From contig NW_024883437.1 of NCBI RefSeq assembly GCF_019059575.1, positions 19,685-83,684 on the forward strand: a stretch of 64,000 nt of DNA. The letters are read 5' to 3'. The DNA comes from Amphibalanus amphitrite (taxonomy: Eukaryota; Arthropoda; Thecostraca; Balanomorpha; Balanidae). Each line of letters begins with the position of its first letter. The stretch's first letter is position 1. This document shows positions 2,002 to 63,637 of the stretch, in pieces. The notes under the pieces are model-generated. The model searched no databases, was not told the DNA's origin, and was given only the letters and a program-made list of their open reading frames with translations. The position numbers were made by a program, and so were the translations under genes.

Positions 2002-2605
2002 TTAACCCACGAGCCGCTGGGGGGGGGGGCATAAAGTTGCCCCCCCCTTTACGTTTTGTGGAATATCTCCGAAACCTGATGAGCTACGAGCGTGAAACTT
2101 GGCATAGCTTCAAATGAATACCTAGGCAATGTTTGAAGAAAGTTTGGTGGTTGTAGCATCTAAGATGACGTCACAGTGACGTCATAAAGTTTTGTCGTTT
2201 TCCGATATGGACCGTTTCTGATGACGCTGAGCATGAAACTCAACTGTAAATGAACTAGACAGGACCTGCTGTCATCCTAAAAGAGCTAAGTACACTTCCA
2301 TCTAGTTCCTAACCAATAATCGGCCCTTTATATTCGGTCCCATATACCTGATGTATCGTGAGGAAACTGAGAGTCGCAAATCTACAATTTGACTTATGAC
2401 GTCACTGTGACGTCATTTCAAATGGGATCGACACCAAATTTGGACACAACCTCGGCTAGGTATTCAGGAAGATGTGTGCAAAGTTTCGCTTCTCTATCTC
2501 TTCGCGTTGCGACGATATCGCCGCGGAAGTAAAGGGGGGGGCAACTATATGCCCCCCCCCCAGCGGCCGGCGGGTGGCGCGGAGGCCCAGCGGCCGCCGG
2601 GTTAA
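2002..2605. mobile_element. TTAA element T1 (piggyBac-like MITE)
   Basis: Flanked by TTAA on both sides (2002-2005 and 2602-2605). The left end reads TTAACCCACGAGCCGCTGG and the right end is CCAGCGGCCGCCGGGTTAA. A second copy of the right terminal motif lies about 30 bp further in. Just inside each end is a G-run, a GCA...TGC core and a C-run. The interior is noncoding, with two TGACGTCA-type sites and a sequence near 2060-2110 (AATATCTCCGAAAC, then GAAACTTGGCA) that recurs in other elements of this window. No transposase is present, so it is non-autonomous. PiggyBac affinity rests on TTAA plus the CCC start only. Confidence 0.8.
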
Positions 2606-4735
2606 CCACGAAAAAATAGCCAATTCTAACTACGCATAGTTTTATATATTAGGTATGTTGGTTCCTTTTTCTTCTTTCAATAAATGAATGCTAAATTTAT
2701 TATGATAGTATACCTACCTGCCATGAAATCCATTGAAAGTCCCCATCCCTCGGCCCCGTACGCATTCTGACAGCCCTGGGACCTCCTAACGCCCGTCCTG
2801 CCTCAGATGACCACCGGTGTCCGGTCCCACCTCTGAGGCCACGCGGCCGCCTTTGATTGGCTGACGGCCCGTGTCGCGGCCGCTAATCACCGGTTCGCGG
2901 CCGCGCCTGATTGGTCGAGAACAAAGCCGGCTCGTTGGCCGCTGCCGGAAACGGGCGGCGAGGAGCGGCGTACCGCGGCGGAGCCGGGGCGGCGGCACAG
3001 GTGGGGGGGAGGGGGACGGGGCGTGGGATGAGTGGGGAGGTATAAGATAAAAGGTAGATGCGTTAAAAGTTGTACCTATAAGAGCACTAAGTAACAAAAG
3101 CAATAAAATATATGAGTATGCCAGACCAACTTTACAGCCTAAGAGAAAGCCAGTACAGCAGCAAAAATTGAAGCTTCTTGACTTCCTAGCTAAACTTCGT
3201 TCAATAGATATTTAACAGGCAGGTACTTATTCGTTATTTTCATATCATCATATGCTTAAAACAGCATTCCAAATGAAATTCCGCGATAAAGAATACATTA
3301 AGTGCAAGCTGACACTAATTTTTGTCTGGCACAAGCCGCAGAGCCGCCGGACCTAAGTAGTGGTCAGAGTCACACCAATCTCCCGAAACAAACAAAAGAG
3401 CGCCGACAGCCACCGTGCGAGGCGTGTTTCCGCGCCGTTTCTGCCGCAGTGCGCCGTGTCCGCCGCGCCGGTCGATGGCGATCCAGTTACAAACAATTAA
3501 ACCCAATTACAATTAGCGGCGCATTGGCACCGCGGCGGGGCGCCGGGGGCGTCCGCAGACGGGGGGGGGGGGGGGGGGGGCAGCGGGGACTCGGGAGGGG
3601 CTCTGGTCGGTGGAAGGGGTGATCAATCAGAGGACTAACTAGCTGCCGACAGTTGACTAACTAGCCGCCGACAGGGGACTAACTAGCCGCCGACAGCGGA
3701 CAGTCACAGGACGAGCGGCGAGGAACAGGACAGGATGGCCCCAGCGGGGCTGCCTGGCCCCATAGAAGGTCCCTTGGGGGATAGGCCTTCCACTGGGATA
3801 TTGCCAACACGTGTGTGCTTGTTTGAGGATGGCCGTGACCCCGACTATAATAAGGGAGGCACGTCAAATATGTTATCATTGTTCAAATCTCTACATATCT
3901 CGAGACATTCAGTTCTGTGCAGCTCAAGTGTAGCTGTGTGCAGATCTCACATTTACTCAGTAGGATACTGTAGTCCGTAATACACAATTTCTCATAGTTC
4001 ACGGTGCCATCGGAGCATACGACCTTCTAAATTCACTGGAGTAGATACCAAACGACTGTCGGTGTGCACAATGTCACTATAAATCCGTGGATACGGTGAC
4101 GTGAAATCCGACCGCAGAAAGGAGCTGCACATAACTTGAGGCCCACACATTTGCGAGGGTCTGGTTATAAACACCATCTCAACATTGTAAATGAGGCATG
4201 AGAAAGAGAGAGGAATACAACGCGAATTGATATTGATGAGATGGCTGCATGCAGAGAGAAGAGCTTGAAATGCTTTATATGTAATTGCTAAAAATAATGC
4301 TAAAAATAAGCAAGCTCTAAGACAAGTCACCGCGCTAAAACGTTTCATAAGCTGCCCTTCAATACGCTGTAAGCCGACCGAGCCACACTAATCCGGCATT
4401 AACATAGAGGAGGCGAATTCGGGTAAAACGTCATGAATCGCAGCGAAGTCACACGTTCCTGGCGGCTCAGTCCAAAGAGGGCTGCCTTTTGTCACGGTTT
4501 GCGGCCGGCGCAGGCGGGGCCGTGTGGCGGCGATGCTATCTCAAAGGTGTCTGCTGATGAGTGGAGGCCGCCGCGTCGGCCGGGTAGCCCCCGCCGCGCC
4601 ACTGATGGGTCGCCGACACCGACGGACGGGGCGGGGGAAGGAGGGGGAGGGGAGGCGGAGCTGGTGGAAACAAGATGGGGTGTGGTCGCACGCACGGATA
4701 TGGATAGGAGTGCGTTTGAGTGAAGGGCGACTGTG
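2606..4735. other. Intergenic with CpG-rich, CCAAT-containing patch
   Basis: At 2790-3010 a CpG-rich patch has several GCGGCCGC sites and two inverted CCAAT boxes (TGATTGG near 2853 and 2908), as in arthropod or vertebrate promoters, but no downstream gene can be recognised on either strand. A second GC-rich patch spans about 3400-3620 and includes a G20 run at 3561-3580. About three tandem copies of a GACTAACTAGCCGCCGACAG-like unit follow at 3632-3698. The remainder is AT-rich and featureless. Confidence 0.5.
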
Positions 4736-5799: not shown

Positions 5800-6752
5800 T
5801 TAATCCTCGTCCCCCCTAGTTTTTTTTCGCGATAGCTCCGAACATGCCAGCAACAGAGAGCTGAAACTAGGCATACCTGACCTTTGATTCAAGCCGGATC
5901 TTGTGACACCAACCAAATTTTCAGGTCAGGTCAGGTTACTGACCTATGACGTCATAAGTGGACGGTCCTCAGATGCCGCAACTTCGCAACGCCCTCAGTC
6001 CCAGAGGAGCTTTTACAGGGGGATGAAACTTACAGTACGTGCATCTTCTAGAAGCCTCACAACTTGTACCTCTAGGATTTTTCCTAAAGATCACATGAGG
6101 TCAGGTCGGTCACGTGACCTAACCACTATAAGTCAATGAAGAAAAATGAAAACTGCTATTCTGGCGCCGGGAACGATCTCAAACTACCTCAAGCACACGG
6201 ATCGTGATTTCATGCACTCCTTGCAAGGTTAGATGCTTCATTTTTGCAACTTTTCGTCAATAACTCCCGATCAAACTGAGCTAGCGAGTCGGTCAAGCCA
6301 CCAATGGACTGAGGAAGAGCTGCCGAATCGAATAATATGCCACACGACCTCCTTTGACCAATTTCGCGACCTAGGTGTCTCTGACCTGACCTTGACCCGA
6401 GGTCAACACCTCAAGTTGACCTCACCCGAACAAAAAGTACCTATACCATTCGACGCGCCTGAGCAAGGCGAGCACGTTGATGCTAAAATCGCCCTCGGCG
6501 ACTGTTTTTTAAGAAGTTATTAATCAAAAACCGAACCCGTGTGTTGGGTCACTTGACCTGACCTCAGAGGACACCGGTTGACCTGAGACCTGAAAATTGG
6601 GTACTAGTTGCTGTGTCTCCTAACGGCACACACGCTCGTTTTTTTCCGCGACGCTCTAACTCCATCAGGGGCGAAAAACGACGAGGGGGTCGTACCAACC
6701 CTCCCCCGGCCGGCGCGCATGTAGAAAACCAACAGGTCCTGCGGTGTCAACT
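5800..6752 (-). mobile_element. TTAA element T2 (degraded, T14 family)
   Basis: Starts TTAATCCTCG at 5800, then TAGTTTTTTTTCGCGATAGC, which matches the reverse complement of the right end of T14. Its right end (6660-6750) matches the reverse complement of the left end of T14, including the string CGCATGTAGAAAACCAACAGG minus small changes. It is therefore an inverted, older copy. The right TIR has decayed (GTGTCAA in place of GGGTTAA) and the left G/C hairpin is lost. Confidence 0.65.
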
Positions 6753-7437: not shown

Positions 7438-8452
7438 TTAACCCGCGCACCGACGGGGGTCTGTGCCAACTTAGTACCGACGGGGGGGGGGGGGGGCGGA
7501 TGACCGCCCCCCCCCTGAGATCTCGAGAACGAAGCAAGATAGCGACAAGCGGTAAACGGCATCGGATACGCACGGTCAAGATCTACAATTTTTACTAAGG
7601 TCATTTTCAGGTCAGGTCAAAGATGACGTCACAGGGGTCGAAAAAGTCAAAATGGCGGCGCTAAATATGGAGAGAGTTTTTCTCGAATAACTTTTGAATT
7701 AGTCAAGATAGGAACAAACTAAGGGCATCATCGTGATCCTCTCGTCAATCCGCATCGAATGATATATATGTTGACCTCGAAAGGTCAAGGTCAAAGGTTG
7801 ACCTCAGGTCACGTGACCTCGAGGTCATCATGTATATCATTCGATGCGTCTTGACGAGCTGAACACAATGAGACCATCCACGCGTCTGTATCTTGTTCCT
7901 GTACGGAGTTATTGGCCAAAAACCATTGGTGACCTTTGATGACGTCACATGACCTCACAGCTGCCCAACAGCAAAACAGACCTCAAGGTAGTGAAGGTTG
8001 ATCGTATATGAAGTCATGTATGGTATATGGGGCCATTCCGACCCGTTTTAGTAGTAAAAACAGTGAGTTGATTTTTCCCCCATTGACTTATAATGGGGAG
8101 GTCACGAAATTGACCTGACCTTAGGTCACCGATATCAAAATTCCGAGATAAAAATTGTAGCTACTAATGACCTAATAACATCCTGCGACTTTCAAAGGCC
8201 TCCGACATCTACTGTAGCTCTGGCACGGTGACAAAGTTGCAAAAAAGTGACTTGAGGTTGGGTCATTCAAAGTGACCTGGTGACCTGACCTTGAAAGGTA
8301 GGAGGTTCAAACTTGCACACCATGTGTAAAATTGATAAGGGAATAGTCATACCAAATTTCGCGGCGCTACGCGCCGCGGTTTTCCCGCTATTCGCGAAAA
8401 ACCTCAGGGGGGGGCGGATATCCGCCCCCCCCCCCGTCGGTGCGCGGGTTAA
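7438..8452. mobile_element. TTAA element T3
   Basis: TTAA at 7438-7441 and 8449-8452. Ends are TTAACCCGCGCACCGACGG and its complement; the left terminal motif is repeated once more about 20 bp inside. G-run/core/C-run hairpins lie at about 7482-7515 (core CGGATGACCG) and 8407-8435 (core CGGATATCCG). The centre holds inverted arms CGCATCGAATGATATA (7751-7766) and TATATCATTCGATGCG (7833-7848) around a cluster of GGTCA/TGACC motifs and the palindrome AGGTCACGTGACCT at 7806-7819. The copy in 20153-21168 (T7) is close to identical. No transposase. Confidence 0.85.
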
Positions 8453-9379
8453 CCCGCGAGTTGCTGGGGGGGGCGTTAAACGCCCCCACTTTTTTCGCCG
8501 GGCCATAGCATAAAAACGGCGCGCCGTAGGCGCGCCAAATTTTGGGTACCTGTAGAGAATTGATTGAAGTTTATGGTGACAATTTTTTTTTGAAAAAAAT
8601 CGATCGGAAAATTTTTGAGATATCGAGGTTTTAGTGACGTCATGATTTCTGAGTTTTCGACCAAAAACGGCATATGTTCAAAAAATCATATAAAATCACA
8701 GAATAGACATACAGACATGCCGTAAACGCCATTAGACTGCCAATACCATGAACAATCAAATGGCTATCTTCGATTATTGATTATCGTTCCGCATTTTCCA
8801 AAATATTGAACTGAATCTCGGCAATTTCTCGTGACTACTTCACCACCATGATACATGCATTTTTTTAAATTTAACTTCTTGAGCCAAACGCGTACACATA
8901 TGATAAAATGAATGTCACCATCGTGTTCTACGCCTCAAATTACCCATAAAACATGTGTCACAGGCTGCGAATATCAGTTTTGATTTTCGGGGATATTTGC
9001 CTACCCGGTTGACCTGACCTTGACCCTGACCTATGCTTGACTGACCTTTACATGGAGCTGACACTCTTGTAGGCCTTATATGATGGATTGTGCACCGTTT
9101 TGACAGAGTTTATGACCAGAGGCGCCAATTGCGAAGTCCTGAAGTCCATGCTACTGAAAGCCCGATTTCAGGTGTTTGACCTGACCTTGACCCCACCTGT
9201 GACCTCAAAATTCAACTTTAAAGTACTCATCTGAAGCGCCTTGTCGCGTTCTTTCGTTTGCCGCCTCGTGCGTTTCGCTGCGCCTATTGGTTCTCGAGTT
9301 ATCGGCTGGGGGCGTTTAACGCCCCCCCCCCCCCCAGCAAACGGTGGGTGGCGAAATACCCCAGCAACTGCCGGGTTAA
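8449..9379. mobile_element. TTAA element T4, sharing its TTAA with T3
   Basis: Begins at the TTAA that closes T3 (8449-8452) and ends at TTAA 9376-9379. Left end TTAACCCGCGAGTTGCTGG, right end CCAGCAACTGCCGGGTTAA with a second, diverged copy about 30 bp inside. Hairpins are G-run, GCGTTAAACGC, C-run on the left and GCGTTTAACGC on the right. The interior has fewer GGTCA motifs than T3 but keeps the CACCATCGTGTTC core (near 8917). Noncoding. Confidence 0.82.
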
Positions 9380-9669
9380 ATGAACTAGATTGAACAAGAT
9401 TTTCATCGGACAAGATTGTTGACGGCCCTCCTATGAAACGAGACTCGATGATTTCTTAAACTCCCTAGTTATTTTGCAACAGCCCTAGGTTCGTTGCATA
9501 CTAACTAGGGAGGTTGCAACGACCCTAGTTTCGTTACAACGTCCCGGAACGAGCAGTTATTTTGTAACGTCCCTAGGGTCGTTGCAAATAAACTGATCGT
9601 TCAGGGAGGTTACAACCACCCTAGGGTCGTTGCAAACTAACTGAAATCGCATACTCCCTGTAACATATA

Positions 9670-13239: not shown

Positions 13240-14241
13240 TTAACCCTATTCCTGGCGGGCTCCGCCGGGACAAGAAACTGGCGGGGGGGGGGGCCGATTC
13301 GGCCCCCCCCCCCTGAGATCTCGAGAACGAAGCAAGATAGCGACAAACGGTAAACGGCATCGGATACGCACGGTCAAGATCTACAATTTTTACAAAGGTC
13401 ATTTTCAGGTCAGGTCAAAGATGACGTCACAGGGGTCGAAAAAGTCAAAATGGCGGCGCTAGATATGGAGAGAGTTTTTCTCGAATAACTTTCGAATTAG
13501 TCAAGATAGGAACAAACTAAGGGCATCATCGTGATCCTCTCGTCAATCCGCATCGAATGATATATATGTTGACCTCGAAAGGTCAAGGTCAAAGGTTGAC
13601 CTCAGGTCACGTGACCTTGAGGTCATCATGTATATCATTCGATGCGTCTTGACGAGCTGAACACAATGAGACCATCCACGCGTCTGTATCTTGTTCCTGT
13701 ACGGAGTTATTGGCCAAAAACCTTTGGTGACCTTTGATGACGTCACATGACCTCACAGCTGCCCAACAGCAAAACAGACCTCAAGGTAGTGAAGGTTGAT
13801 CGTATATGAAGTCATGTATGGTATATGGGGCCATTCCGACCCGTTTTAGTGGTAAAAACAGGGAGTTGATTTTTCCCCCATTGACTTATAATGGGGAGGT
13901 CGCGAAACTGACCTGACCTTAGGTCACCGATATCAAAATTCCGAGATATAAAAATTGCACATACTGGTACCCTAACTAAAGCCTGAAGAGAAGAAATTGA
14001 TCGGTCAAAAACTCTAGCTCTGGCGTGATTGCAAACTTTTCTGAGGTAGGGTCACCAAACCGCCTCTGGTGACCTGACCTGAGGTCAGATCAACTCAACA
14101 TTTTCAGACATGTTGCGTAGAAGCCTTTTAGGAAAAGTCAGAAAATTTGAGCTTCCTAGCTCAACGCGTTTGGGAGAAATAACCAAAAAACCTCAGGGGG
14201 GGCTCCTGAGGCCCCCCCCCCCCCGCCAGGAATAGGGTTAA
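13240..14241. mobile_element. TTAA element T5 (chimeric)
   Basis: TTAA at 13240-13243 and 14238-14241. Ends are TTAACCCTATTCCTGGCGGG and its complement, with a second TIR-like motif just inside on the left. The left two-thirds (about 13313-13960) are nearly identical to T3 and T7, including the central inverted arms and AGGTCACGTGACCT. The right third is different and its last part (TTTTAGGAAAAGTCAGAAAA near 14130) matches the right end of T10. Terminal repeats match each other although the interior is a mosaic. Noncoding. Confidence 0.83.
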
Positions 14242-15239: not shown

Positions 15240-18080
15240 ATAACCCGGCACCGCCTGGGCTATTTCCGTACCCACGACAGCCTGGGGGGGGGGTCGGATC
15301 CGACCCCCCCCCCCCTGTTATCTCGAGAACCAATGGTCGCATCGAGCCCCGCGAGGCGGCGTTCGAAAGGTTTCTACGAGACCTTCCCAAAGCACTCTTA
15401 AGATTTTAAGATTGAGGTCAACTTTCGGGTCAAGGTCAGGTCAAAGGTCAAATTCTGGGGTTTTGCATGATTAGGCTTACGGACAGCGGAATCGATACCT
15501 GCTGCTCGAAACTCACCATAAATGACCTCAAAGACCTAGTAAAGGTACCATGTGCGTATAGGGGTCATACTAAGTACGGGTCAAGGTCAGGTCAGGTTAC
15601 GAAAGGTCACGGTTTTCACTTTCTGCTACATGGGCGTGCGACACATGTTTTATGGCTTATTTTTCACGCCGAATCCGATGGTAATGGTTATATGTGACCC
15701 CAAGTCACTGTGCTGGTGATAAGTGTGCATTGAAAGCATAAAAAATCGTTTATACCATACATAACTAAACGAACTAAGAAAAAAGGTCAAATTTTCAACT
15801 TTTTATTTTTGACATGAAAATGCACTTTTCTAGACGAGCTTTGTCCTAGGAATCTAGTGGTGCCATTTGTTTTCACATGCGATGTTCAGAAGTGCCTCTA
15901 ATTCACGAAAATGCTTATGACGTCACCATGCCCTATGCATGTTGGAGCTATTTTTTACAATTTGGGGGTCAAAAATCAAGATAGAAAGTTGAAATTTGGG
16001 ACATCTAATTTTCTAATAGAGCTCTATAACATTTCCGGTTTTTTGGAAATTCTCAAAATTTTGGATTTTATTAGCTGTTTTCCAAAAAATAAAGTTTTTT
16101 GAATTTTTGGGGGTGAAAAACGCATTTTATGGAAAATCCGAGATAGCTATTTTAAAGAACTCGTTGAGCTGCGTCTATTCATGTCCTTAATTTGCAATTT
16201 TCTTTAAACCCTGATTTTTGGCGATTTTTTAAACATTTACCATTTTTGACAAAAAAAGGCCATGTAGTTACATCACTAAAATCGATATATCTCAAAAAAA
16301 AATTGGGAAAATTTTCTTAAAAATTACACACGAGACGTCAAATTGATGGAGAAGAAGGTATGCCAAGTTTCAAGTTGGGGCGTTCCACGACAAATCGACA
16401 AGTGCCCTGCACCCTCATATTTTATTTTTTGCTTAGAATTGGTCTAATGGGTTGTGATGGACGGGGAAGCCAGCTGTGGCAAGGATTTTTTCCTTCGAAC
16501 AACGGTTTCCGAGATATAGCCTCGGGCAATTCTTGGAGTTCGCGCTGCAGCCCTATGTTTGGCGGTCTATAACTCAGAAACTATTGGCTTTTTACGATAA
16601 AAACTTTATATGGTTCAACTCACAATCAACCAACAAACATTTTGGCTATCTCGGATTTTCAATTTTTGAAAATTTTGATCACGTGACCTTTTGTCCTATT
16701 TCTCGAAGAGTGACCTTGATATTTTCCCCACTGAAAGTTGCAATTTTGTCTGATGACGATTAAAGCCTTATCAATTGTCATTCATATGCGATAATAAAAA
16801 AGTGGTTATCGCCCTGCGTTGACCTCAGGTAAGGTCATTTTTATGACCTGTCCATTATTACGAGCGGGAGCGACAGCGAGATCTCGAGAATAAAGCAAGA
16901 TAGCGACAAGCCGTAAACGGTAAAGGGTACACACGGATAAGGTCTATAATTTTTACTGAGGTCATTTTCAGGTCAGGTCAAAGATGACGTCACAGGAGCT
17001 AAAAGGAAGTCAAAATAGCGGCACTATACATGTATATGAAGTTTTTCTCGAATAACTTTCAAGGTATCCCAGCTAGGAACAAACTAATAGCACCATCGTG
17101 ATCCTCTCGTCGATCCGCATCGAAACATATGTTTGTTGACCTCGAAAGGTCGAAAGGTCAAAAGTTGACCTTAGGTCACGTGATCTAAGGTCAACTTTTG
17201 ACCTTTCGACCTTTCGAGGTCAACATACATATGTTTCGATGCGGATCGACGGGAGGATCACGATGGTGCTATTAGTTTGTTCCTAGCTGGGATACCTTGA
17301 AAGTTATTTGAGAAAAACTTCATATATATGTATAGTGCCGCATTTTAACTTCCTTTTAGCTCCTGTGACGTCATCTTTGACCTGACCTGAAAATGACCTC
17401 AGTAAAAATTATAGACCTTATCCGTGTGTACCCTTTACCGTTTACCGCTTGTCTCTATCTTGCTTTATTCTCGAGATCTCGCTGTCGCTCCCGCTCGTAA
17501 TAATGGACAGGTCATAAAAATGACCTGACCTGAGGTCAACGCAGGGCGATAACCACTTTTTTTTATTATCGCATAGGAATGACAATCGATAAGGCTTTAA
17601 TCGTCATCAGACAAAATTGCAACTTTCAGTGGGGAAAATATCAAGGTCACTCTTCGAAAAATAGGACAAAAGGTCACGTGATCAAAATTTTCAAAAATTG
17701 AAAATCCGAGATAGTCAAAATGTTTCTTGGTTGATTGTGAGTTGAACCATTTAAAGTTTTTATCATAAAAAGCCAATAGTTTTTGAGTTATAGGCCGCCA
17801 AACATAGGGCTGCAGCGCGAAATCCAGGAATTGCCCGAGGCTATATCTCGGAAACCGTTGTTCGAAGAAAAAAATCCTTGCCACAGCTGGCTTCCCCGCC
17901 CATCACAACCCCTTACACCAGTTTTCAACGAAGAATAAAATATGAGGGTGCAAATTTGATTTTTTATTTGTCGATTTGTCGTGGAACGCCCCAGTTGATA
18001 GCGTAAGCGGTTCATGAGTTATTCAAGAAAAACGGAGGGGGGGTCGGATCCGACCCCCCCCCCAGGCGGTCGCGGGATAA
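15240..18080. mobile_element. Element T6 (2.8 kb, ATAA-flanked, with internal palindrome)
   Basis: Flanked by ATAA at 15240-15243 and 18077-18080. Left end CCCGGCACCGCCTGG, right end complement CCCGCGACCGCCTGG. Both hairpins have the same core: G-run, TCGGATCCGA, C-run (near 15290 and 18040). From about 16374 to 17994 it is a near-complete inverted repeat centred on CACGTG at 17177-17182. The innermost ~300 bp of each arm match the left interior of T3/T5/T7. Mirror-image reading frames of 95 codons in the two arms are by-products of the palindrome, not evidence of a gene. Confidence 0.82.
16374..17994. repeat. 1.6-kb palindrome inside T6
   Basis: Arms of about 800 bp, highly similar with a few substitutions and short indels, meeting at GGTCACGTGATC. 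Left-arm landmarks (TTGGGGCGTTCCACGACAAA, GGGGAAGCCAGCTGTGGCAA) recur in reverse complement near 17980 and 17885. Confidence 0.88.
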
Positions 18081-19807: not shown

Positions 19808-22800
19808 ATGACGGCGTTACTGTGGCTGCTGCTACTGCTCGGAAGCTCTTTGGTAGGTAGGCAATACACATACCTCCACATGTTGTTGAGAGCATTCAGC
19901 GCTTAAAGTTGAATTAAAATGTGATTTTTTAATAGATATGAAAATTAATTGATTATACAGTCTTACTCTTGGCAAGAGCATACCTACTATGTAGAAATGG
20001 AACATTGATGTCAAATTCCATAATACTAGGCGCCTAGTCTATGTTTTTGCCCATTAACCATTTCAAAATATTCGTACGCAACGTCAGCCCGGCAAAACAA
20101 ACGGTTGTTGCATGTAACCAAACAAATAATAAGCAACGTCTTATGATTGCCTTAACCCGCGCACCGACGGGGGTCTGCGCCAACTTCGCACCGACGGGGG
20201 GGGGGGGGCGGATGACCGCCCCCCTGAATCTCGAGAACGAAGCAAGATAGCGACAAGCGGTAAATGGCATCGGATACGCACGGTCAAGATCTACAATTTT
20301 TACGAAGGTCATTTTTAGGTCAGGTCAAAGATGACGTCACAGGGGTCGAAAAAGTCAAAATGGCGGCGCTAGATATGGAGAGAGTTTTTCTCGAATAACT
20401 TTCGAATTAGTCAAGATAGGAGCAAACTAAGGGCATCATCGTGATCCTCTCGTCAATCCGCATCGAATGATATATAGGTATGTTGACCTCGAAAGGTCAA
20501 GGTCAAAGGTTGACCTCAGGTCACGTGACCTCGAGGTCATCATGTATATCATTCGATGCGTCTTGACGAGCTGAACACAATGAGACCATCCACGCGGCTG
20601 TATCTTGTTCCTGTACGGAGTTATTGGCAAAAAAAAAAACGTTTGGTGACCTTTGATGACGTCACATGACCTTACAGCTGCCCAACAGCAAAACAGACCT
20701 CAAGGTAGTGAAGGTTGATCGTATATGAAAACATGCATGGTATATGGGGCCATTCCGACCCGTTTTAATGGTAAAAACTGGGAGTTGATTTTTCCCCCAT
20801 TGACTTATAATGGGGAGGTCGCGAAATTGACCTGACCTTAGGTAACCGATATCAAAATTCTGAGATATACAAGTTGTAGCTACTAATGACCTAATAACAT
20901 CCTGCGACTTTCAAATGCCTCCGACATCTACTGTAGCTCTGGCACGGTGACAAAGTTGCAAAAAAGTGACTTGAGGTTGGGTCATTCAAAGTGACCTGGT
21001 GACCTGACCTTAAAAGGTAGGAGGTTCAAACTTGCACACCATGTGTAAAATTGATAAGGGAATAGTCGTGCCAAATTTCGCGGCGCTACGCGCCGCGGTT
21101 TTCCCGCCATTTGCGAAAAACCTCAGGGGGGCGGATATCCGCCCCCGTCGCGTCGGTGCGCGTGTTAATTAAACCGGACATGAATAGACGAACTATCAAA
21201 CCCAAACGATTCACAATTAATTATATAATTAGTCTTCATTTATAAAAAAAGGTACCAAACCGTCCATAGCTGTTGTTTCCTCCATAGATGAAATGGCTGA
21301 GGGTAGATAAGAAAGCAGGCATGTGAAACAATAATGATGCACCTTGTAGCTGATCGCTTACGATTCAGCGGTCGGAAACTAAGCTCCCATCATGCATCAG
21401 TAACTCATTCTTTTCTTTCTTTTCAGTTATGTGCAGCTGCAGGACAAGATTATGAAGGTAAGTGCTACAAATAATCATGAATTTTATCATTTTACTATTT
21501 CCGTATGTTGATTTTCAGTGTAGTTGCCTTTCATCCCAGAGACTCCTTATTATTTCTACTGACCCCAACAATCAATATCTGAACCCTCTCTCGCAGTTGC
21601 CGTCTACTCCATACTGCCTCGGATCTAAACACTCTACCTATTTTTATCTATTTCTATTTTTATCTATCACTCTATCTATTTTTGTCTAAAATGACTGCGA
21701 TCATATCAATTCCCTATTCAGTATTCACCCTCCTACCTACCCACAGTGTCCAAAATATGACCCTCCCCCCCCCCCTCCGTCCCGGCAGTGGCCGAGATCC
21801 GGTGCAGTTTCTCCGGGGACGGCGGCGCTCCGGACCGCCTCTCGGCCCGGCTCCGGAAACCCCCCGGATTCCGGGGCGACCCGCTGTTCGCCGACGACCG
21901 TCAGGTGATCCCCCAGCTGGACAGCGCGTGTCAGATCCGGGCCGACCCGAGCGACCCGGACCGACTCATCTACAGCCTGCTCGTCACGGACTTCTCCCGC
22001 TGCGGGGTGCTCAAACGAGACGTGAGTGCCGCACACGTCACGGGAGCTGCACGCTATATAAATTCCTGTTTTTTTCATGTTGTTTTTAACGGTTTTGAGG
22101 AAGGCATAGGAAGTTAGGAATGTCTCTCTTGCATTTTTATCTGAGGGAGTATCATAAATATTCAAAGAGAGAAGCAATGCTGATGCAACTAGGCAGATAA
22201 CAGACCAAGATCTGCTTCCGTTTTTATAAGGGTTGCAACAATTTTTTTTTTTATAACATCAAGTCTACAATGAAGTTATAAGTTCAAAGAATATTATACA
22301 AAAATAGCATCCGTTGAAACTGCGTGCATAGTCTGAGAAATAACTAAATTGCTTTCTATCTGCATTAGTCACTAAGCGATTTAGAAATGTCTTTCTTACA
22401 ATTGAAGTAAATTGGAGAAAAATCGATTCACTCTATTGCACGCCCAATTACACCCCTGTCCAATTCATAGACTGCTCTTCAAATCACCGACAATTGCTCA
22501 CTCCATGCCAGCGGTCCGTCTAACAACCGCTCATTCTCTGACCTTGTCGCCGTCATTAGTGTCTGTCGCTGGTTTATTCCGTCTGTGTTATTCCCGTCCG
22601 GTGGGCGAGTGACCAGCGCGGGTCGCGCTCCGCCGGCAGCGCGTGCTTCCGCCGCCTGTTTGGTGTCGGACAGCCACCTGTTTGTGACGCTGGTCGGTGT
22701 CAACATCCTCCCTCGTGTGTACGCACGCCTTCCCTCTTCAAGGCCGGCACGGCGGCGGGCCCCGGCGACTAATTAGGAGACGTCTGCTGGCGGAATAAGT

Positions 22801-25800: not shown

Positions 25801-28800
25801 CTTTTGGGGTTATGAAAAGTTAATTCGCTGAACTTGAACAGCAAGCCCAAACGCAAAGCTGAGGCAACACTTTAATCCACATAATTCATTTTCTAAACGT
25901 CCATAGTAGTTAATGTGTTTATGAGCGTGAGGGGTGAAGCTAAATATTGCCTTCCTGGCTGAATTCGCTTTTGTGATTCACGTGATCAACTATGGCCAGT
26001 CGGTAAGAAGGGTGCGTATGAATTATGCTTCTCTATATCTGTTACAAGCAGGGGTGCGGAGCCGGAGCCGGAGCTGGAGCCGGAGGCGCCGGAGCCGGCA
26101 TCCCGGAATCGGAGCCGGAGCCGTGAAACAATATAGCCCGGAGCCGGAGCCGTCAAAAAAGGGGCGACTCCGGCTCCCTTTTTTTGAAGAGGAAAAAATT
26201 AATGACCTAGTTCGGTTTGACAGTTCAAAGCAGCAAACTATGCGGTATTAACCTTCGCCCCAGTGGGGGGGGGCATATGTTACCACCCTGTCGCGTTTTT
26301 CGCGTGTGAATAAAAAACTGCGGCGCGTAGCGCCGCGCCGCTTGGAGTAGCTTTTGGTATATCGATTTTGGACAATGTGTGAAATTTTTGACCCCAGGTC
26401 ATGTCAGGTCAGGTCACCAGGTCAAGTTAACTGACCAAGCCTAAAAAAACGTTTGCAATCCTGTCCAGCCTGCAGTGTTTGTCAGAAAGGTTTCAAACTT
26501 GGTGGATTGCATGATGTTATGGGCACCTACAATTTGTATATCTCGGATTTTTTATATCCGTGACCTAATGTCAGGTCAGTGGCGTGACCTTACCATTACA
26601 AGTCAATGGAGAAAAATGAAAATGCCTCTAGATCCGTGTGTACGCATAGGAACAGTCCAAATATTTCAGAATCACAATGATTTATTCCACTCGGGATGAC
26701 CAAGGTGACATTTTTGCTGATAGCCTCTAGAAAGGTCATCCGAGGTCATTTGAGGCTACAAACAGTTTTTTGCCAATAACTCGCGATTGGAAAGAGATAG
26801 GACGCTGGGAATGGTCTCATTGTGTTTGTCTCGTTGAGACGCATCGACTGATATGCAACATGACCTTTTCCGGTCAGGTCATGACCTTGACCTGAGGTCA
26901 AATTTTCAAGTTGACCTTTCAAGGTCAATTTATAGTTCATTCGACGCGTCTCGGCAAGGGGAACACGATTCTGGTAATATAAATGTCGTGGCTTTTTGTA
27001 GTAGAAAGTTATTGTCGAAAAACACTTTTCGTAAAAACAGCTATTTTTGGAGTTTTTGCCCTCTGGAGGCTAAACCGTTTACCTGAGGTAAATATTGATA
27101 ATGACCTTTTCAAAAGAAAAGTTCAAAAGCTATCGATTGCTCTTTCATGCGTTTTTCTAGCTACCATAGTTCCTGAGATAGCGGCATGTGTTCTGAGAAA
27201 TATAATGACATTTGGCAAATTTTGACCTTTGATGACCTACAGTGACCTCAATATTGCTCTAAGATGAAAATGACCTAAATACTTTCAAACGTCGCATTGA
27301 GAGCTGTCGACTGCTTTTTGCCGCGTCTTTTTAGCCCTCTTAGTTTTTGAGTTAGAGGTGGGTGGTAACATATGCCCCCCCCCCCCCCACTAGGGCGAAG
27401 TTGGTTGAGACCGCCACTGGGGCGCGGGTTAAAATATGAAAATAGCCTTGTTTGCAAATACAGAAGCAGCGTGCACCAATCCCATCTTCTTTTTTCTTCC
27501 ACCCGTATTTAATTGCATAGGGGATGTACTGAATAATGGAGCTGGAGCCGGAGTCGGAGCCGCCGGGGCCGGACCATTTTACTCGAAGCCGGAGCCGGAG
27601 CCGCCATGACATTTCACCCGGAGCCGGAGCCGGAGCCGGAGGCGATTTTTTTTTTCTCCGGAGCCGGATCCGGAGCCGTCTGAAATTTCCACGGCTCCGC
27701 ATCCCTGGTTACAAGTCATATCTAACCGACCTACCTTGAACTGAGAACCATATGACTGCGTCACTCGAAACATGACAATGAAAAGAGCAGCGCTGGCAAA
27801 ATGGCACCCAATTTGCATGAGCATCCATTGCAGAGATCCCGCCTCTTCCGCTTTTTCGGCTCGTTAACCACGCTCATTGCAAAGGTGCATCATCCCGGTC
27901 AGAGTGCGTATCGGCGTCCCTTTGTCCAGTGGCCGTGAGTTGAGACAGCCCCGGTCACGAGCTGAGACAGCCCGCCCATCCGCCGTGGCTCCGCTCCGCG
28001 CCTCCGCCGCGGGGGGTCGCCGGCGGGTAGCGGAGGTCAGGAGCAGAGGATGACCGGTGCAGCAGCGACCTGCAGCCGGTCGTTACCCACGCGGACACGG
28101 TGGGAGGGCAAGAAAAGAACACGGTCGCGGCCGGAACAGGGAGGAGAGACTGAACCGCCCACAGTGCCGACAGCCGACGGACACGCCGTGTCGATGCCCG
28201 GCCGACGTACTGCGTGCGTCGAGCTGTGTGATTTAGGAGCTAGACGTGACTGGACGCCTAGGTTATATGACTTCTTAGGTTCATGGATAAAACAAGCCTG
28301 CGCAGGTGTTGAAGATTAATTGCATGACGTTGTAGGAGACACCGGAATAGCCAAGGGAAAATTATGCTTTCATCGTATAATCAAAAACTGCTCTTTGGAG
28401 CTACCTGAAGTCCTCACAATCACCCAACACAGGTAATCAAATCCTGCTCGACACAACGAACAGCGACCGATGCCTCCTGACTTATGTTTTTTATATTTGT
28501 CCACCGAGTGTCAGCTCCTACGCAATGCCGTTCTCTTGCAATAGGTACCGATTCCCCATCTGCAGGTTCGATTCCGCTGACGGTTCCCGTTTTCCCGTGC
28601 CGGCAGGGTTTCGTGAACGTGCGGCTGTGGTTTCCGCAGCTGCCCGGAGTGGTGATGATGTCCGACCAGGAGGTCATCATCATGTGCAAGCCCACCCAGG
28701 CGACCGTGGTCGAGGAGCGCGTGGCAGCCTTCGCCGGGAGAGTGTGAGTGTGCAGCTAAGTGTCCACGAGACAGCGAGGGTTGCTGTCCGAGCGTGAAAA

Positions 28801-34401: not shown

Positions 34402-42773
<8,372 letters not shown>

Positions 42774-43174: not shown

Positions 43175-44580
43175 GTATGAGTGACTCCGGAGTTCGGACG
43201 ACGAGACGGTGTCCGTTCCCTCTTTTCCATCCTCAGAACAGGCAAATCCTCCCTCACGCCTCAGCCCCCTGCTCCGGGCTGGATGGGCAACTGTAGGTAT
43301 CCCATGCGGGCGGGACGGGATCAGTGGCGGCGGAACACCGGGCCGGAGCACTGCTGGTACTTTTGGTCCCAACTCCCATTCTTTCCTTGCAACGCCCATA
43401 GGGCTTATGTTAACCCTCGCCGGCACAGGCCATTTTGAGTCCTTCGACGGCACAAGGAGGTGGGGGGTTGGTACGACCCCCCTCGCGTTTGGCCCCTGAT
43501 GGAGCTAGAGCTTCGCGGAAAAAACGAGCGTGTTGCCCGTCACGAGAGGAAGCCAATGATACCCAATTTTAAGGTCCTAGGTCCTCGGTTGACCTTCCAG
43601 GTCAGGTCAATGACCCAAAAATCGGGAAAATCGGGACCTGTTAGAAAGTCGTAAAGTGTTGGTGCTAAGGGGTTTTCCGGGGTGCTGATCACGAATATCG
43701 TGTTAGTTTTGATCACAGATGATGTCGTTAAGCGTTTAGACCAGGTCGGGTTAGGTCAGGTCAGGTCAACCGGTAGGGGTCGTGACGGGTATTCGTAGTA
43801 CCTGTCATCCGCCTCTGACAGCTTCGTAACATGTTACGAAGGCACCAAAACTACTTCGTAAATGTTCCAATGGTTGCTAAATTCGAATTCAGCTCCAAAA
43901 ACTAGCCTAGGAACATGTACAACTCGAAAAAGTGATTGTGAACCGAGGTCACCAAAGGTCAATGACCTGACCTGACCTTCAGGTGACCTTGACACCCACC
44001 CTAATGCATGGGAGCAACATCAAATCACATGTTAAAACGTTTGAAACCACGAAAAGCTTGCAAACGCTAGGCTAATGCGAGCTGACATACGCCGAATCGC
44101 GATTCCGGCCAAACAAGGTCTCGGAAGAGAGGTCACAGGTCAAAGGTCATTTGGGTCAGGGTCATGAAATTGTCAGAGTAGGTGTAAAATTGATTAATGC
44201 GAGAGTACTGAAACTTTCGTTGCGATCGGCCGCTTTTTACGCGAGTTATTCGCGAAAAAACCTTAGGGGGGTTGTATCACCACCCCCCGTGCCGGCGAGT
44301 GTTAAAATGCCAAAATCAAAGGGGGGCACGATGCTCCGGTGCCCCCCCCCAATTCAGCCGCCTATGTGCGGGATTGCCCGTAAGAGCACGCCCGTAGCCG
44401 GGTGCGGTGAGTGCCTGGAGGGCTGGTCGGCCTGCCGGTCCTCTGGACGGGCAGGCCGACCTGGCGACTCACTAGGGTGCTCGCCCAGACCAATGTCTCC
44501 CCCTAATTCCTATCATCCGTCTGGCCCTGAAATGGTCTCGCCCGGGCCGAAAGGGCCTTACCCAGCAAAACAAACAAAAA
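43175..44580 (+). mobile_element. SINE-like repeat A, copy 1, split by T9
   Basis: Left piece 43175-43409 and right piece 44306-44580 are together homologous to the reverse complement of 45775-46145. Shared landmarks are TTCCATCCTCAG, CATGCGGGC, GTAGCCGGG, CCAGACCAATGTCTCCCCCT and TGGTCTC. The copy ends with CAAACAAAAAAA, an A-rich tail like that of a SINE. No tRNA or 5S head could be identified. A hairpin GGTCGGCCTGCC/GGGCAGGCCGACC lies at about 44425-44462. Confidence 0.6.
43410..44305. mobile_element. TTAA element T9 nested in repeat A
   Basis: TTAA at 43410-43413 and 44302-44305. Left end TTAACCCTCGCCGGCAC, right end GTGCCGGCGAGTGTTAA. Hairpins have GGGGGGT...ACCCCCC arms. The left ~150 bp resemble T14 and T2, while the middle is the sequence also present at 6790-7300. 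Many GGTCA/TGACC motifs. Noncoding. Confidence 0.82.
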
Positions 44581-46747: not shown

Positions 46748-47642
46748 TTAACCCTATTAGTGGCAGGCTCCTGGCTACCCCTATTAGTGGCAGGGGGGGG
46801 GGGGGGGGGGCTGTTTACGACCCCTCCCTGATATCTCGAGATCTAACGGGCCGATTTTCAAAATTCAAACGGCATTCGATTTTGCTCAACGTGATCTACA
46901 TTTCTAAAAATAAAAATTAAAAGATGTCAATAGGGGGGTAGAGGGGGGTAAAAACGGGCAAATTGCAGATACATTTTAGACTGTTTATCACGGCCAGGTT
47001 TCTGAACCAATCTTAACGCAACTTTTGCCGATCGATAGAGAATGAACCAGGAATTCACATGGATCCTAACATCATAGGCGGATACAGATCATTGAGATTG
47101 GGGGTACACAAAAACTATAGTAAATAAGGTTTTTGTTGGTACTGTTTCTAAAAAGGGTGGACGGTGGTAATGGTCTTGTTATGTTACAATTTTCTTATGA
47201 GAGAACGACTACAATTGTATTGGTCATGCATAGGCGGTGTCAGGGCACCTATGTTGGGAGGTAAAACATAACCCCCCTTTTTGGACGCCTGGATCCGCCT
47301 ATTATAGCAAAAACGTGTTGAAAGAGGATGCACAATAACTTTGTATATGTTATCACATGATACCTTTCATTCACTGTTCGTAAATCTGATGCATACAGTT
47401 ATAATACATCAGCATCGTGATCTTCGCCCAAATGACTCGCTTCACCAATAGGACCCCCCAATTCCCAGTGCTCTGGAGCTGCCCCTGGTGAAGGTATGAA
47501 CTTGAAATTTTCAGGGAATGTGCCCAATTTAGTTTTAGGAAAAGTCAGAAAATTTCAGCATCGTAGCTTCAGCGGTTTCGGAGATATTCCCAAAAAACCT
47601 GAGGGGTGAATGAAAACAACCCCCTGCCACTAATAGGGTTTT
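46748..47642. mobile_element. TTAA element T10
   Basis: Left end TTAACCCTATTAGTGGCAGG with a complete second copy CCCTATTAGTGGCAGG about 30 bp inside; right end CCTGCCACTAATAGGG followed by TTTT, a probable mutated TTAA. G/C structures are less self-complementary. The right-end interior matches T5 (GTTTTAGGAAAAGTCAGAAA). Unlike most of the set it has few GGTCA motifs. It contains the nested MITE at 47074-47302. Confidence 0.75.
47074..47302. mobile_element. 229-bp MITE nested in T10
   Basis: Ends ATAGGCGGATACAG and, reversed, ATAGGCGGATCCAGG. Noncoding. Target duplication not resolved (TA- and AT-rich flanks). Confidence 0.6.
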
Positions 47643-48527: not shown

Positions 48528-49707
48528 ATAACCCGCGCCGTGCTGGGGGGGCGTTTTTACGCCCCCCCCTCAGGTTTTTCGCGAATATCTCAAAAACGGC
48601 GGCGCGCAGCGCCGCCGTTTTTGGTACACGTGTTCCTACATCATTTCCGCACATGTTGTGAAAATTTCAGACCTAGGCCGTTCAAGGTCAGGTCACCAGG
48701 TCACGTCAAGTGACCTTACCTCAGAAAACGTTCAAAGGCTCGCTATAGCTACACCGACTGAACGATCACTTTGAAACTTTCAGCGATTGATATGAGTAAC
48801 AGTATGTATAAAATGTATATCTCGGATTTTTGATATCTGTGACCTAAGGTCAGGTCAATTTTGCGACCTCTCCATTATAAGTCAATGGGAGAAAATTGAA
48901 ATGCGCCTCTTTTGGACGAATATCGTTCAAAACGCTCTCAAACATCGGTTCATAGGTAAACATGACACACTGAATAGGAAAAATGCACCTGTGACCCCTC
49001 TGTGTGCCCCTGAGGTCATCTCAGGTCATGAACGGTCGCCAGCAGTTTTTTGGCTATAACTTTTGATAGAGACGTGCTAGAGCGGTGAAAACACGTCAGA
49101 TGTGTTCAGCTCGACGATACGGATCGACTGATATGCAACATGACCCTTTTCGGTCAGGTCATGACCTTGACCTGAGGTCAAATTTTCAAAATGACCTTTC
49201 AAGGTCAACGAATAGTTCATTCGACGCGTCTCGACGAGAGGAACACGATGCTGGCAAAAGTAATGTCATGGCGCTTATGAGTCAAAAGTTATTGACGAAA
49301 AAACGTTTTTCGTAAAAACGGCTATTTTTGGAGTTTTTGCCCTCTGGAGGCTAAACCGTTGACCTGAGGTCAAATCTGAGAACATTACTCAGAAAGGTCT
49401 GTAAAAGGGCTATCGAATGCGCTTTTCCGCGGCGCTGTAGCTCTATCGGTTCCCGAGATAGCCGTTGGCAGTTTCCAAAATGTTGAAATAGTCAACATTT
49501 TACCTTTGGTGACCTCTGGTGACCTGACCTTTGACCTGACCCAAAAAATGACCGAAGTGTTTTCGTCTTTATTTTTGACGCTCTTTCGATTGCCGCTTAC
49601 CGCGTGTCGCTACGTGGCCCAGGAGCCGAGTTAGACGGGGGGGCGTGAAAACGCCCCCCCCCCAGCACTCGGCGGAAAGTTCAGGCCACCAGCACGGCGC
49701 GGGATAA
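48528..49707. mobile_element. Element T11 (ATAA-flanked)
   Basis: ATAA at 48528-48531 and 49704-49707. Ends are CCCGCGCCGTGCTGG and its complement, with a second TIR-like motif (CAGCACTCGGCGG) on the right. Hairpin cores GCGTTTTTACGC (left) and GCGTGAAAACGC (right) keep paired arms but differ in the loop. The interior is related to T8, with the central module GATCGACTGATATGCAACATG near 49125 (arm) and TTCATTCGACGCGTCTCG near 49216. Noncoding. Confidence 0.83.
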
Positions 49708-58247: not shown

Positions 58248-58249
58248 CG

Positions 58250-60195: not shown

Positions 60196-60342
60196 GGTTT
60201 GTAGTATATGTATAGTGTACCTGTGAAGGATATTTAATGCATATGTGAACTCACATTATGCTCTTGCAGGAGCATAACGTGGACCACGTGAGGTCATGTG
60301 AGGTCATGGCAAGTTCAGCAACTGCAGTTTTAAGCAATATCA

Positions 60343-61518
60343 TTAACCCGCGCCCCACTGGGGGGGGCTATTTATAGCCCCCCTCCCGTTTTTCTGCAAT
60401 AACTTCCAAACCGCTTGACGTATCGACGCCAAACTTGCAGTACCTTCGGCTGCATCAATTTGACACCTTGTGTCAAAATTTGAACTTCGTAGCTACCATA
60501 GGTCGGCCGGAAATGACGTCAGAGTGACGTCATGTTCGTCCGATTTCGACGCAAAACATTGAACCACGGCAATCGCTCCCAAGAGCTCAGTTTTTAAGCT
60601 AGATCCAATTTCTTTGCATGAAAGGACTCAGGATTGACCGCGCTATCAAACTGCTATCTCGGATTTTCAAAATTTTGAAAATTTCGAAAATTTTATATAA
60701 TAATATTCAAATTTATATTTTTATATTTTTTTCAAAAAGTTTTTGACTTTTCGAAAAAACCGGAATATATGTGACAGAACGCATGATTATGACTAACTCT
60801 AGTAAGTTTTAGCTAAATATCTTAAAAAATGGCCAAGTTATACGCATTATTGCAAAAAATTCACAATTAATTTTTCAAATCACTTTTTCAGTACGTATTT
60901 GACATCGTACACCAATATAAATGGCACCATCGTGTTCCTGAGCTCAAACTGCATCCAATAGACACCTTTTTGTTGAAAAATGTTAACTTCAAAATTTGAC
61001 CTTTTTTGACCTGAAAGTGACCTGACCTAAGCTAAATTTGACTCAAATGACCTCAAATGACACAGACGACATCAAATTCGAAATCTATGGCCTAAATGGA
61101 CCATAAAACATGTGTCACGTGACCGACGCATGATATAATATTTTCGTGACCTGTGATGACCTGACCCTGACCTGAAAATCAAAGTACAAGTTTGGTACCC
61201 TCAAGGTATCTAGAGCATCTGTTCACGAGTGTGGAAACCAAAATGAGCCTGATCTGACTTGTAAGACGGCGGCCAGAGCCCAAAATGTGAACAAGCCAAA
61301 GTGCTAATAATTTTTACTTTGACCTGACCTGTGACGTCATCGGTGACCTCGAGGTCAATGAAATTAGGTTTCGCTCGACAGTTTTTCCGGGGCTATCAGA
61401 CGCCGTTTGAATTTTGACGATCGGCCCAGTAGTTTCGGAGTTAGGAGGGGGGGCTATGAATAGCCCCCCCCCCCCAGTAGGGCGTGTTATACACAGACCC
61501 CAGTGGGGCGCGGGTTAA
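60343..61518 (+). mobile_element. TTAA element T12
   Basis: TTAA at 60343-60346 and 61515-61518. Ends TTAACCCGCGCCCCACTGG and CCAGTGGGGCGCGGGTTAA, with a second TIR-like copy (CAGTAGGGCG) on the right. Hairpin cores are GCTATTTATAGC (left) and GCTATGAATAGC (right). The interior has an AT-rich half and a GGTCA/TGACC-rich half, two TGACGTCA-like sites and ACCATCGTGTTCCTGAGC (near 60927). Noncoding. Confidence 0.85.
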
Positions 61519-62597
61519 CCCGCCCCACCGGCGTCTGATAGCCCCGGTAAAACTGTCGAGCGAAACCTAATTTCATTGACCTCGAGGTCACCGATGACGT
61601 CACAGGTCAGGTCAAAGTAAAAACTACTAGCATTTTGGCTTCTTCACGTTTTGGGCTCTGGCCGCCGTCTTACAAGTCAGATCAGGCTCATTTTTGGTTC
61701 ACACACTCGTGAACAGATGCTCTAGATACTCTGAGGGTACCAAACTTGTACTTCGATTTTCAGGTCAAGGTCAGGTCATCACAGGTCACGAAAATATATA
61801 TCATCCGTCGGTCACGTGACACATGTTTTATGGTCCATTTAGGCCAAACATTTCGAATTTGATGTCGTCTGTGTCATTCTAGGTCATTTTGAGTCAAATT
61901 TAGCTTAGGTCAGGTCACTTTCAGGTCAAAAAGGTCAAATTTTGAAGTTATAATTTTTCAACAAAAAAGGTGTCTATTGGATGCAGTTTGAGCTCAGGAA
62001 CACGATGGTGCTATTTATATTGGCGTACGATGTCAAATTGGTGCTGAAAAAATTGATTTGAAAAAAATAATTGTTAATTTTTGCAATAATGCGTATAACT
62101 TGGCCATTTCTGAAGATATTTAGCTAAAACTTGCTAGAGTTAGTCATAATAATGCGTTCTATCACATATATTCCGTTTTTTTTCGAAAAGTCAAAAAAAA
62201 TGAAAAAGAATGTAAGAATATAAATTTTGAATTTTATTATATAAAATTTTCGAAATTTTCAACATTTTGAAAATCCGAGATGGCAGTTTGATAGCACAGT
62301 CTATTTTGAGTCCTCTCATGCAAAGAAATTGGATCTAGCTTAAAAACTGAGCTCTTGGGAGCGATTGCCGTGGTTCAATGTTTTGCGTCGAAATCGGCCG
62401 AACATGACGTCACTCTGACGTCATTTTCAGCCGACCTATGGTAGGTACGAAGTTCAAAGTTTGACACAAGGTGTCAAATTGATGCAGCCGAAGGTACTGA
62501 AAGTTTGGCGTCGATACGTCAAGTGGTTTGGAAGTTATTGCAGAAAAACGGGAGGGGGGGCTATAAATAGCCCCCCCCCCAGTGGGGCGCGGGTTAA
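61515..62597 (-). mobile_element. TTAA element T13, inverted copy of T12 sharing its TTAA
   Basis: Colinear in reverse complement with T12. The inner end is shortened: CAGACGCCG is followed directly by GTGGGGCGGGTTAA (reading inwards), so about 70 bp with one hairpin are deleted there. The outer end keeps the hairpin, with core GCTATAAATAGC, and TTAA at 62594-62597. Confidence 0.85.
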
Positions 62598-63637
62598 CCC
62601 TCGCCGGACCTATTGGTTTTCTACATACGCGCCGGCCGAGGGGGGGGGGGGGCGGGTACGACCCCCCCCCCTCGCCGTTTCGCCCCTGGTGGAGCTAGCG
62701 CGTCGCGGAAAAAACGAGCGTGTGCGCCGTTACGAGACGCAGAGATTGGTACCCGATTTTAAGGTCCTACATAGGTCAACCGGTGACCTCTGAGGTCAGG
62801 TCAAGTGCCCCAAGGTACGGTTCAGTTTTTGGTGAATAACTTCGCAAAAAACGGCCGCAGAGCGCCGATTTTGGCAGCATCGTGTTCGTCTCGCTCAGGC
62901 GCGTCGAATGATATACTTTTCGTCTGGGTCAGGTCAACTTGGGGTGTTGACCTCAGGTCAAGGTCAGGTCAGCACCCCCAGGTCACGAAGTTGGTCGAAA
63001 GAGGTCATGTCGCATATCATTCGATTCGGCAGGTCTTCCTGAGTCCATTGGTGGCTTTCCCGACTCGCTAGCTCAATTTGATCAAGAGTTATTGACGAAA
63101 AACTAATATGACCTTGATGACGTCATAAATGACGTCACGCAAGGTCAACATTGCAAAAGTGACGCATCTAACCTTGCAAGGAGTGCATCAAATCACGATT
63201 CTGTGTGCTTGAGATAGTTGGAGATCGTTCCCGGCGCCAGAATAGCAGTTTGAATTTTTCCCCATTGACTTATAATGGTGAGGTAACGAAAATGACCTGA
63301 CCTCATATGACCTTTAGGAAAAATCCGAGATATACAAGTTGTGGGACTCATAATGGATACTAGATCCTGCAAGTTTCATTTCCCTGTGACATCTCCTCTG
63401 GCAGTGAGGGCGTTGCGAAGTTGCGACATCTGAAGACCGTGCAGAGGTTCACTTATGACGTCATAGGTCAGTGACCTGACCTGACCCAAAAATGCGGTTG
63501 GTGTCAAAAGATCCGGCTTGGATCAAAGGTCAGGTATGCCAAGTTTCAGCTCTCTATCGCCAGCGTGTTCGGAGCTATCGCGAAAAAACCCTATGGGGGG
63601 GGCGGCACCCGCCCCCCCCTCGGCAGGCGAGGGTTAA
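62594..63637 (+). mobile_element. TTAA element T14, sharing its TTAA with T13
   Basis: Starts at the TTAA closing T13 and ends at TTAA 63634-63637. Left end TTAACCCTCGCCGGACC, right end CGGCAGGCGAGGGTTAA. The left has a CGGCCGAGG piece and a long G-run before the core, the right the core GCGGCACCCGC. The centre has CGCGTCGAATGATATAC (62896) and CATATCATTCGATTCGG (63011), the same inverted arms as T3. T2 is an inverted old relative. Confidence 0.83.

Follow-up and report, generated by a model that had tools for sequence, protein, structure and literature searches.

Fourteen transposable elements in the genome of Amphibalanus amphitrite carry, just inside most of their ends, a palindrome made of a run of Gs, a short core and a run of Cs, and our comparative analysis indicates that these palindromes are very probably the internal repeat of piggyBac-type transposons, bound as duplex DNA by the transposase. 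The stretch analysed (the window) comprises 64,000 bases of contig NW_024883437.1 (assembly GCF_019059575.1). The elements, numbered T1-T14 along the window, take up 15,809 of its bases, range in length from 604 to 2841 bp and most likely represent 11 families (our own grouping) of non-autonomous piggyBac-type elements. An earlier note, made from the sequence alone, had suggested selection on hairpin or quadruplex-type structures, perhaps recognised by a transposase or made by a non-standard end-processing step. Covariation of the cores between families and, as its likely cause, recognition by a transposase are upheld here; the structural part of that proposal fares less well, as discussed below.

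Layout of the element ends

Palindromes of the full G-run/core/C-run pattern stand at 22 of the 28 possible ends, in agreement with the earlier note, and the cores quoted there are present when read on the + strand. Four further ends, both of T8 and both of T10, have a weak version, and two have none (the short-end palindrome of T2 is deleted and the long-end one of T13 is absent). When stretches of five or more Gs, 3-20 nt and five or more Cs are collected from the whole window, 22 of the 23 are at element ends. The corresponding search string, GGGGGN{3,20}CCCCC, gives 97 overlapping matches versus 1.1 expected from dinucleotide shuffles, and the reverse order, CCCCC...GGGGG, gives 0 versus 0.95 expected. 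The homopolymer arms are 5-18 bp long; the longer G-run is on the long end (defined below) in 8 of 11 elements, with the opposite in two and a tie in one, a bias too weak to use. The one stretch of this kind elsewhere (44321-44350) begins 16 bp past the TTAA of T9, and the segment 44302-44350 is perhaps a decayed additional element.

The ends themselves are those of TTAA-targeting elements. Identical 4-bp flanks are found in 12 of the 14 (TTAA for ten, ATAA for T6 and T11; T2 and T10 are mismatched), and a single TTAA is common to each of the neighbour pairs T3/T4, T12/T13 and T13/T14. The tip starts with CCC at 23 of 28 ends, the others being the short ends of T2 (TCC), T7 and T9 (both CAC) and T8 (CCT) and the long end of T2, where no such start is left. 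Between the two ends of an element the 13-bp tips match at 9-13 of 13 positions in 10 of the 11 elements compared, and in T7 at 7 of 13 with a hand-chosen anchor.

Two features that were absent from the earlier note are the asymmetry of the two ends, which we call short (S) and long (L), and a repeat of the tip motif inside the long one. On short ends the G-run starts 14 bp after the TTAA in 10 of 13 cases (15 in T14 and T10, and 19 in T7, which has five extra bases; T7 and T10 were counted by eye). On long ends it starts at bp 41 in 7 of 12 and at bp 40-42 in 10 of 12 (40 in T5 and T12, 42 in T10, 43 in T14; 49 in T9, where the run seems to have decayed); T2, having no intact tip there, stands outside this count. 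The G-run lies, that is, 0 bp inside the 13-bp tip repeat on the short end and about 27 bp inside it on the long end. The tip block, bp 4-16, recurs further inside the long end with a best shift of 27 in 9 of 13 cases, of 26 in T5 and T12 and of 28 in T2 and T14, where the repeat is weak (7/13 letters) and, in T2, tied with another shift. Summed over the 13 long ends, shift 27 gives 116 of 169 matches; the 12 short ends show a broad rise only, with their largest sum, 62 of 156, at shift 28. When each family contributes a single long end (n = 11), the shift-27 sum is 99, versus a maximum of 71 at any shift in 5000 shuffles. The right end of Trichoplusia ni (T. ni) piggyBac, in a sequence of which two stretches agree with those quoted in PMC7351741 and PMC3459987, is also best at shift 27. 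A palindromic internal repeat, placed asymmetrically at the two ends, is found throughout the set, apart from the non-palindromic core of T8 and the two ends that have no palindrome.

Symmetry and covariation of the cores

Complementarity holds for 75 of 121 core pairs in 25 ends, versus 29% in letter shuffles (none of 20000 reaches the observed value) and 38% when halves are swapped between ends. The excess persists when each family is represented by a single core (34 of 52 pairs, half-swap P = 0.00015) and when the other end of each family is used instead (30 of 53, P = 0.0006). For covariation we took the 16 distinct cores minus their central bases, since a MAFFT alignment of full cores was gapped at its ends. 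The covariation score is 0.287; shuffles give 0.121, none of the 500 being as high, and sliding the cores gives no more than 0.091. Watson-Crick pairs number 44 of 64 versus 25.9 expected, and G-T pairs 3 versus 6.7. Covariation between families, as proposed in the earlier note, is borne out by both the score and the half-swaps.

Its description of the cores as usually self-complementary is borne out in part: the symmetry exceeds that of the controls, but pairing reaches at least 80% in only 10 of 25, and T8 and T10 are not the sole weak exceptions, pairing being 50% or less in 8 of 25 (T1S, T2L, T5S, T8S, T8L, T9L, T10L and T14L). In a comparison of each end with its own shuffles, 17 of 25 ends have a dyad of p 0.05 or less at the G/C palindrome; the dyad is not significant in T1S (0.053), T2L, T7L, T8S, T8L, T9L and T10L, and T9S has its best dyad at another place. 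The further claim that within a family the loop changes while the arms stay paired fits the short and long ends of T11 and of T12. It does not fit the copies of T3/T7 (both ends) or of T12/T13 (short ends), in which the cores are letter-identical and it is the run lengths that differ.

The two ends of an element mostly share their core in orientation as well as in letters. In 10 elements, 83 of 99 positions agree between S and L cores read in the same orientation and 61 of 99 when one is reversed; agreement between families is 33%. The core of T8, CATATGTTACCACCC, is identical at both ends (12/12) and that of T1 nearly so (9/10), while T3 and T7 have retained the same distinct short-end and long-end cores.

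Comparison with known piggyBac-type ends

In the passages of the literature that we draw on, the piggyBac transposon is described with 13-bp repeats and 19-bp subterminal repeats lying 3 and 31 bp inside them (PMC4625184); the latter are palindromic and are bound by a dimer of C-terminal cysteine-rich (zinc) domains, with the DNA bent (PMC7351741). The ends studied here are like those of T. ni piggyBac (LE35/RE63) in the TTAA target, the CCC tip, the 13-bp repeat, the palindromic internal repeat at both ends, the combination of one short and one long end and the long-end tip motif at a shift of 27 bp. They are unlike it in that T. ni piggyBac is autonomous and its palindrome stands 3 bp past the 13-bp repeat, has TGCGT half-sites and is without G/C homopolymer arms; past TTAACCC we noticed no primary sequence likeness.

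Other relatives share parts of the design. piggyBat of Myotis lucifugus has a GC-rich tip motif and, 3 bp on, an imperfect palindrome likewise bound by a dimer of zinc domains (PMC11707139), but there are three copies on its left end and none on its right, and both the fold of the domain and the palindrome are unrelated to those of piggyBac. The human PGBD3/MER85 miniature elements are, like ours, non-autonomous and TTAA-flanked, and MER85 has 13-bp repeats and a 16-bp palindrome 3 bp inside the tip, which the transposase needs for full binding: its replacement in 42-bp fragments led to 80% loss of transposase binding (PMC3459987). They differ in having a single palindrome, near the 5' end and of another sequence, and a length of ~140 bp. 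The CMITEs of the coral Acropora are TTAA miniature families in which differing terminal repeats stand over a conserved interior, with tandem arrays reported, but they are ~100 bp long and the relevant part of the paper describes no G/C-tract palindromes (PMC2872659). In Daphnia, ~10% of the insertions of Pokey, a piggyBac-superfamily element, and of mPok are at non-TTAA sites, mainly TTAT or ATAA, and ~23% of mPok copies sit in a TTAA adjoining another copy (PMC3849761). These habits of target choice and of insertion into a neighbour's TTAA recur here; mPok, a piggyBac-superfamily miniature element of ~750 bp, differs in its imperfect repeats of 12 or 16 bp, and 'palindrom' occurs nowhere in the main text (PMC3849761). 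Word searches of open papers (titles and abstract openings) found no description of G/C-tract palindromes in piggyBac elements, and Rfam at gathering scores gave no match. An exact scan of viral contigs with one element tip gave no match either; with the looser pattern TTAACCC-N10-G7-gap-C5 four loci were obtained, which we read as chance; none had an inverted TTAA[CA]CC end elsewhere within the fetched stretch (1,039-8,427 bases).

Each end opens with a 13-bp tip, the first bases of which make up the TTAA/CCC site of cleavage and joining, and the palindrome comes next: directly behind the tip on one end, and on the other separated from it by a spacer plus the repeated tip motif, which lies 27 bp further in. 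On the analogy with piggyBac, a transposase dimer would read the tip motif with its core, while its paired C-terminal zinc domains would grip the palindrome in its duplex form, bending it; the additional motif copy on the long end would help a second dimer to take its place, bringing one short and one long end into synapsis. Layout, spacing and tip repeat, the symmetry of the cores, their common orientation and the target-site duplications are seen in the sequences themselves; we infer the transposase, its zinc domain, the binding and the choice of G/C-tract bases that would be contacted. Dyad symmetry would be retained because each half is read by one of two identical domains, and the variety of cores would reflect a separate specificity in every transposase lineage; a dimer binding site predicts, then, both the symmetry and the covariation between families without any hairpin. 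The variation in run length would most simply be slippage in homopolymer tracts.

Several observations weigh against a piggyBac-type duplex site. Neither a transposase nor a zinc domain is seen: none of 54 stop-masked frames across all 14 elements holds a piggyBac domain, for which reason we class the elements as non-autonomous and not as autonomous piggyBac. The G-run starts at bp 14, and the piggyBac palindrome is placed at bp 17 (PMC7351741). Homopolymer arms of 5-18 bp are absent from the characterised palindromes. T7S and T9S aside, the dyad centre on short ends varies between bp 25.5 and bp 30, which is looser than a rigid complex predicts. The core of T8 is not a palindrome at all, and agreement between S and L cores is poor in T5 (3/9) and T14 (6/9). 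Finally, two of the five covariation measures are within the range of shuffles: the count of covarying pairs is reached by 343 of 500 and that of further pair types by 96 of 500.

Alternative explanations

Covariation is compatible with structure as well as with a duplex site, and five of six palindromes folded as single strands give stems of -10.5 to -16.2 kcal/mol; together with the absence of the reverse C...G order from the window, this is what speaks for selection that favours extrusion of the palindromes into hairpins or cruciforms (or formation of quadruplexes), which a protein would recognise as structure. We nevertheless consider this improbable. The palindromes keep a nearly fixed register from the tip and are linked to the tip-motif repeat, and position, repeat and asymmetry all match the known duplex site; most cores have the same orientation at both ends, including that of T8, whose folding is no better than that of its shuffles; and G-T pairs, as counted above, are not enriched. 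These properties of the cores favour a duplex sequence. A run of at least 15 Gs is taken as the minimum for a quadruplex within one run, and only 2 of 25 G-runs reach it (T3L with 15 and T10L with 18), so quadruplexes at most ends are rejected on run length. Neither structure as the object of selection nor a non-standard end-processing step, both put forward in the earlier note, is supported, the layout being that of the duplex palindrome bound by piggyBac-type transposases. piggyBac does make a hairpin of its own, at the TTAA of its excised ends (PMC7351741). Transient hairpins may form at the palindromes alongside binding of the duplex.

The symmetry might instead be a neutral product of mutation, with slippage lengthening the G/C tracts and template switching in a hairpin perfecting near-palindromes. 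Run lengths do vary among same-family copies with identical cores (T3/T7, T12/T13), and 9 of 44 G- or C-runs of at least 7 are outside the elements. Such a process is hard to reconcile with imperfect cores kept identical or nearly so at both ends (T8 and T1), with the same pair of distinct cores kept in T3 and T7, or with a nearly fixed distance from the tip, and we regard it as quite unlikely. It is less likely still that the elements belong to another TTAA-duplicating superfamily such as Sola3, whose target site is TTAA. No transposase is seen in the 14 elements, so the assignment to a superfamily is made from the ends; but these ends resemble those of piggyBac in their CCC tips, in the alternative use of ATAA, in the asymmetry of the palindromes and in the tip repeat at 27 bp.

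Probable exchange between end cassettes and interiors

T5 combines the interior of T3 with different ends. From the long-end palindrome inwards it is 96.8% identical to T3 over 690 bp; in alignment columns 101-700 the two agree at 581 of 591 positions (98%), versus 571 of 591 for T3 and T7 (sums of alignment blocks). Identity starts again in the inner C-run and ends near column 725, the short half beyond being different, and 75 bp close to the short end are similar to T10 (85%). The tips of T5 agree with each other (13/13) and differ from those of T3, as do the cores. Since a T3 interior stands here under other tips and cores, tip and core behave as one exchangeable unit, and the simplest reading of the alignment is that a copy made from a T3-type element took the place of the former interior of T5.

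It is conceivable, though we would not bet on it, that the G/C tracts are kept as joints for such exchange, their arms being common to nearly all families and allowing an end cassette (tip and core) to be swapped against an interior by gap repair or template switching. T5 would then represent one exchange event, and the short-end deletion of T2, whose boundary is at the C-run, an exchange that failed. That the tracts promote exchange is a guess; if true, such joints would let a successful interior acquire ends read by a new transposase.

The elements and their surroundings

Coordinates are collected in Table 1. By similarity T3 pairs with T7 (94.5%), T12 with T13 (93.5%) and T2 with T14 (79%). 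Behind the short-end palindrome, within the first ~45 bp inside, an alignment of 12 short ends shows a consensus block GGTTTTTCGGGAATANCTC in most of them, with a poor fit in T4; the block is possibly a further binding site. Because short ends share this block beyond the palindrome, most of the families look related.

Table 1. Elements T1-T14 in the window, with the positions of their end palindromes
Element	Position	Left end	Right end	Remarks
T1	2002..2605	short, palindrome 2019-2047	long, palindrome 2534-2561	604 bp; TTAA on both flanks
T2	5800..6751			T14 family; short-end palindrome deleted; long-end palindrome 6685-6707 decayed; right TTAA lost; right border 6751 estimated
T3	7438..8452	long, palindrome 7482-7515	short, palindrome 8407-8435	
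T4	8449..9379	short, palindrome 8466-8487	long, palindrome 9308-9335	TTAA 8449-8452 in common with T3
T5	13240..14241	long, palindrome 13283-13313	short, palindrome 14196-14224	T3-like interior, other tips and cores
T6	15240..18080	long, palindrome 15284-15315	short, palindrome 18037-18063	2841 bp; ATAA on both flanks; no Pfam transposase domain
T7	20152..21168	long, palindrome 20196-20224	short, palindrome 21126-21146	T3 family (94.5%); 5 extra bp ahead of the short-end G-run
T8	26248..27432	short, G-run from 26265	long, G-run 27388-27375 (- strand reading)	same non-palindromic core at both ends
T9	43410..44305	long, palindrome 43462-43482	short, palindrome 44266-44288	
T10	46748..47642	long, run of 18 Gs	short, weak palindrome, degenerate TTAA	
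T11	48528..49707	short, palindrome 48545-48569	long, palindrome 49637-49663	ATAA on both flanks
T12	60343..61518	short, palindrome 60360-60383	long, palindrome 61447-61475	
T13	61515..62597		short, palindrome 62554-62580	inverted copy of T12 (93.5%); long-end palindrome missing
T14	62594..63637	long, palindrome 62640-62671	short, palindrome 63595-63619	

The 54 frames gave a few weak domain matches (E 0.03 to 0.3), all to unrelated families, and among the 19 open reading frames of at least 150 amino acids in the window only that at 44151-44765 overlaps an element (T9), and then partly. The interior of T6 contains at 16408-17952 a near-perfect inverted duplication of 1.5 kb without a spacer, its arms 95-98% complementary in three pieces. 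T12 and T13 (60343-62597) are inverted copies joined at one TTAA and, with the long-end palindrome of T13 gone, the pair resembles a unit with two short ends. A 298-bp inverted repeat (4730-5027 and 9378-9675, 96% complementary) lies on either side of the T2-T4 region. Elsewhere the window has open frames of the non-LTR retrotransposon type, with reverse-transcriptase domains at 36044-38158 and 23829-24920 and an endonuclease domain at 41625-42506 (a protein search with the reverse-transcriptase frame matched 7635 of 8000 candidates scored), and a nested simple repeat, (GA)n, (GACGGG)n, (GA)n, at 38832-39209.

Significance

piggyBac is a widely used gene-transfer tool. The internal repeat described here is of an ordinary kind and its design is well preserved; its odd feature is the long G/C tracts that flank the binding palindrome, an unexplained addition. 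These arms deserve the attention of specialists, as do the 27-bp asymmetry and the number of families found together here, and the families offer a natural series for following the joint evolution of the palindrome and the zinc domain of the transposase. The asymmetric ends of piggyBac have been termed a puzzling arrangement (PMC7351741). The same asymmetry, mostly within a base pair, is kept in 11 families of a single window while their cores vary, which suggests that the layout is a deep requirement of these elements and not an oddity of the moth transposon.

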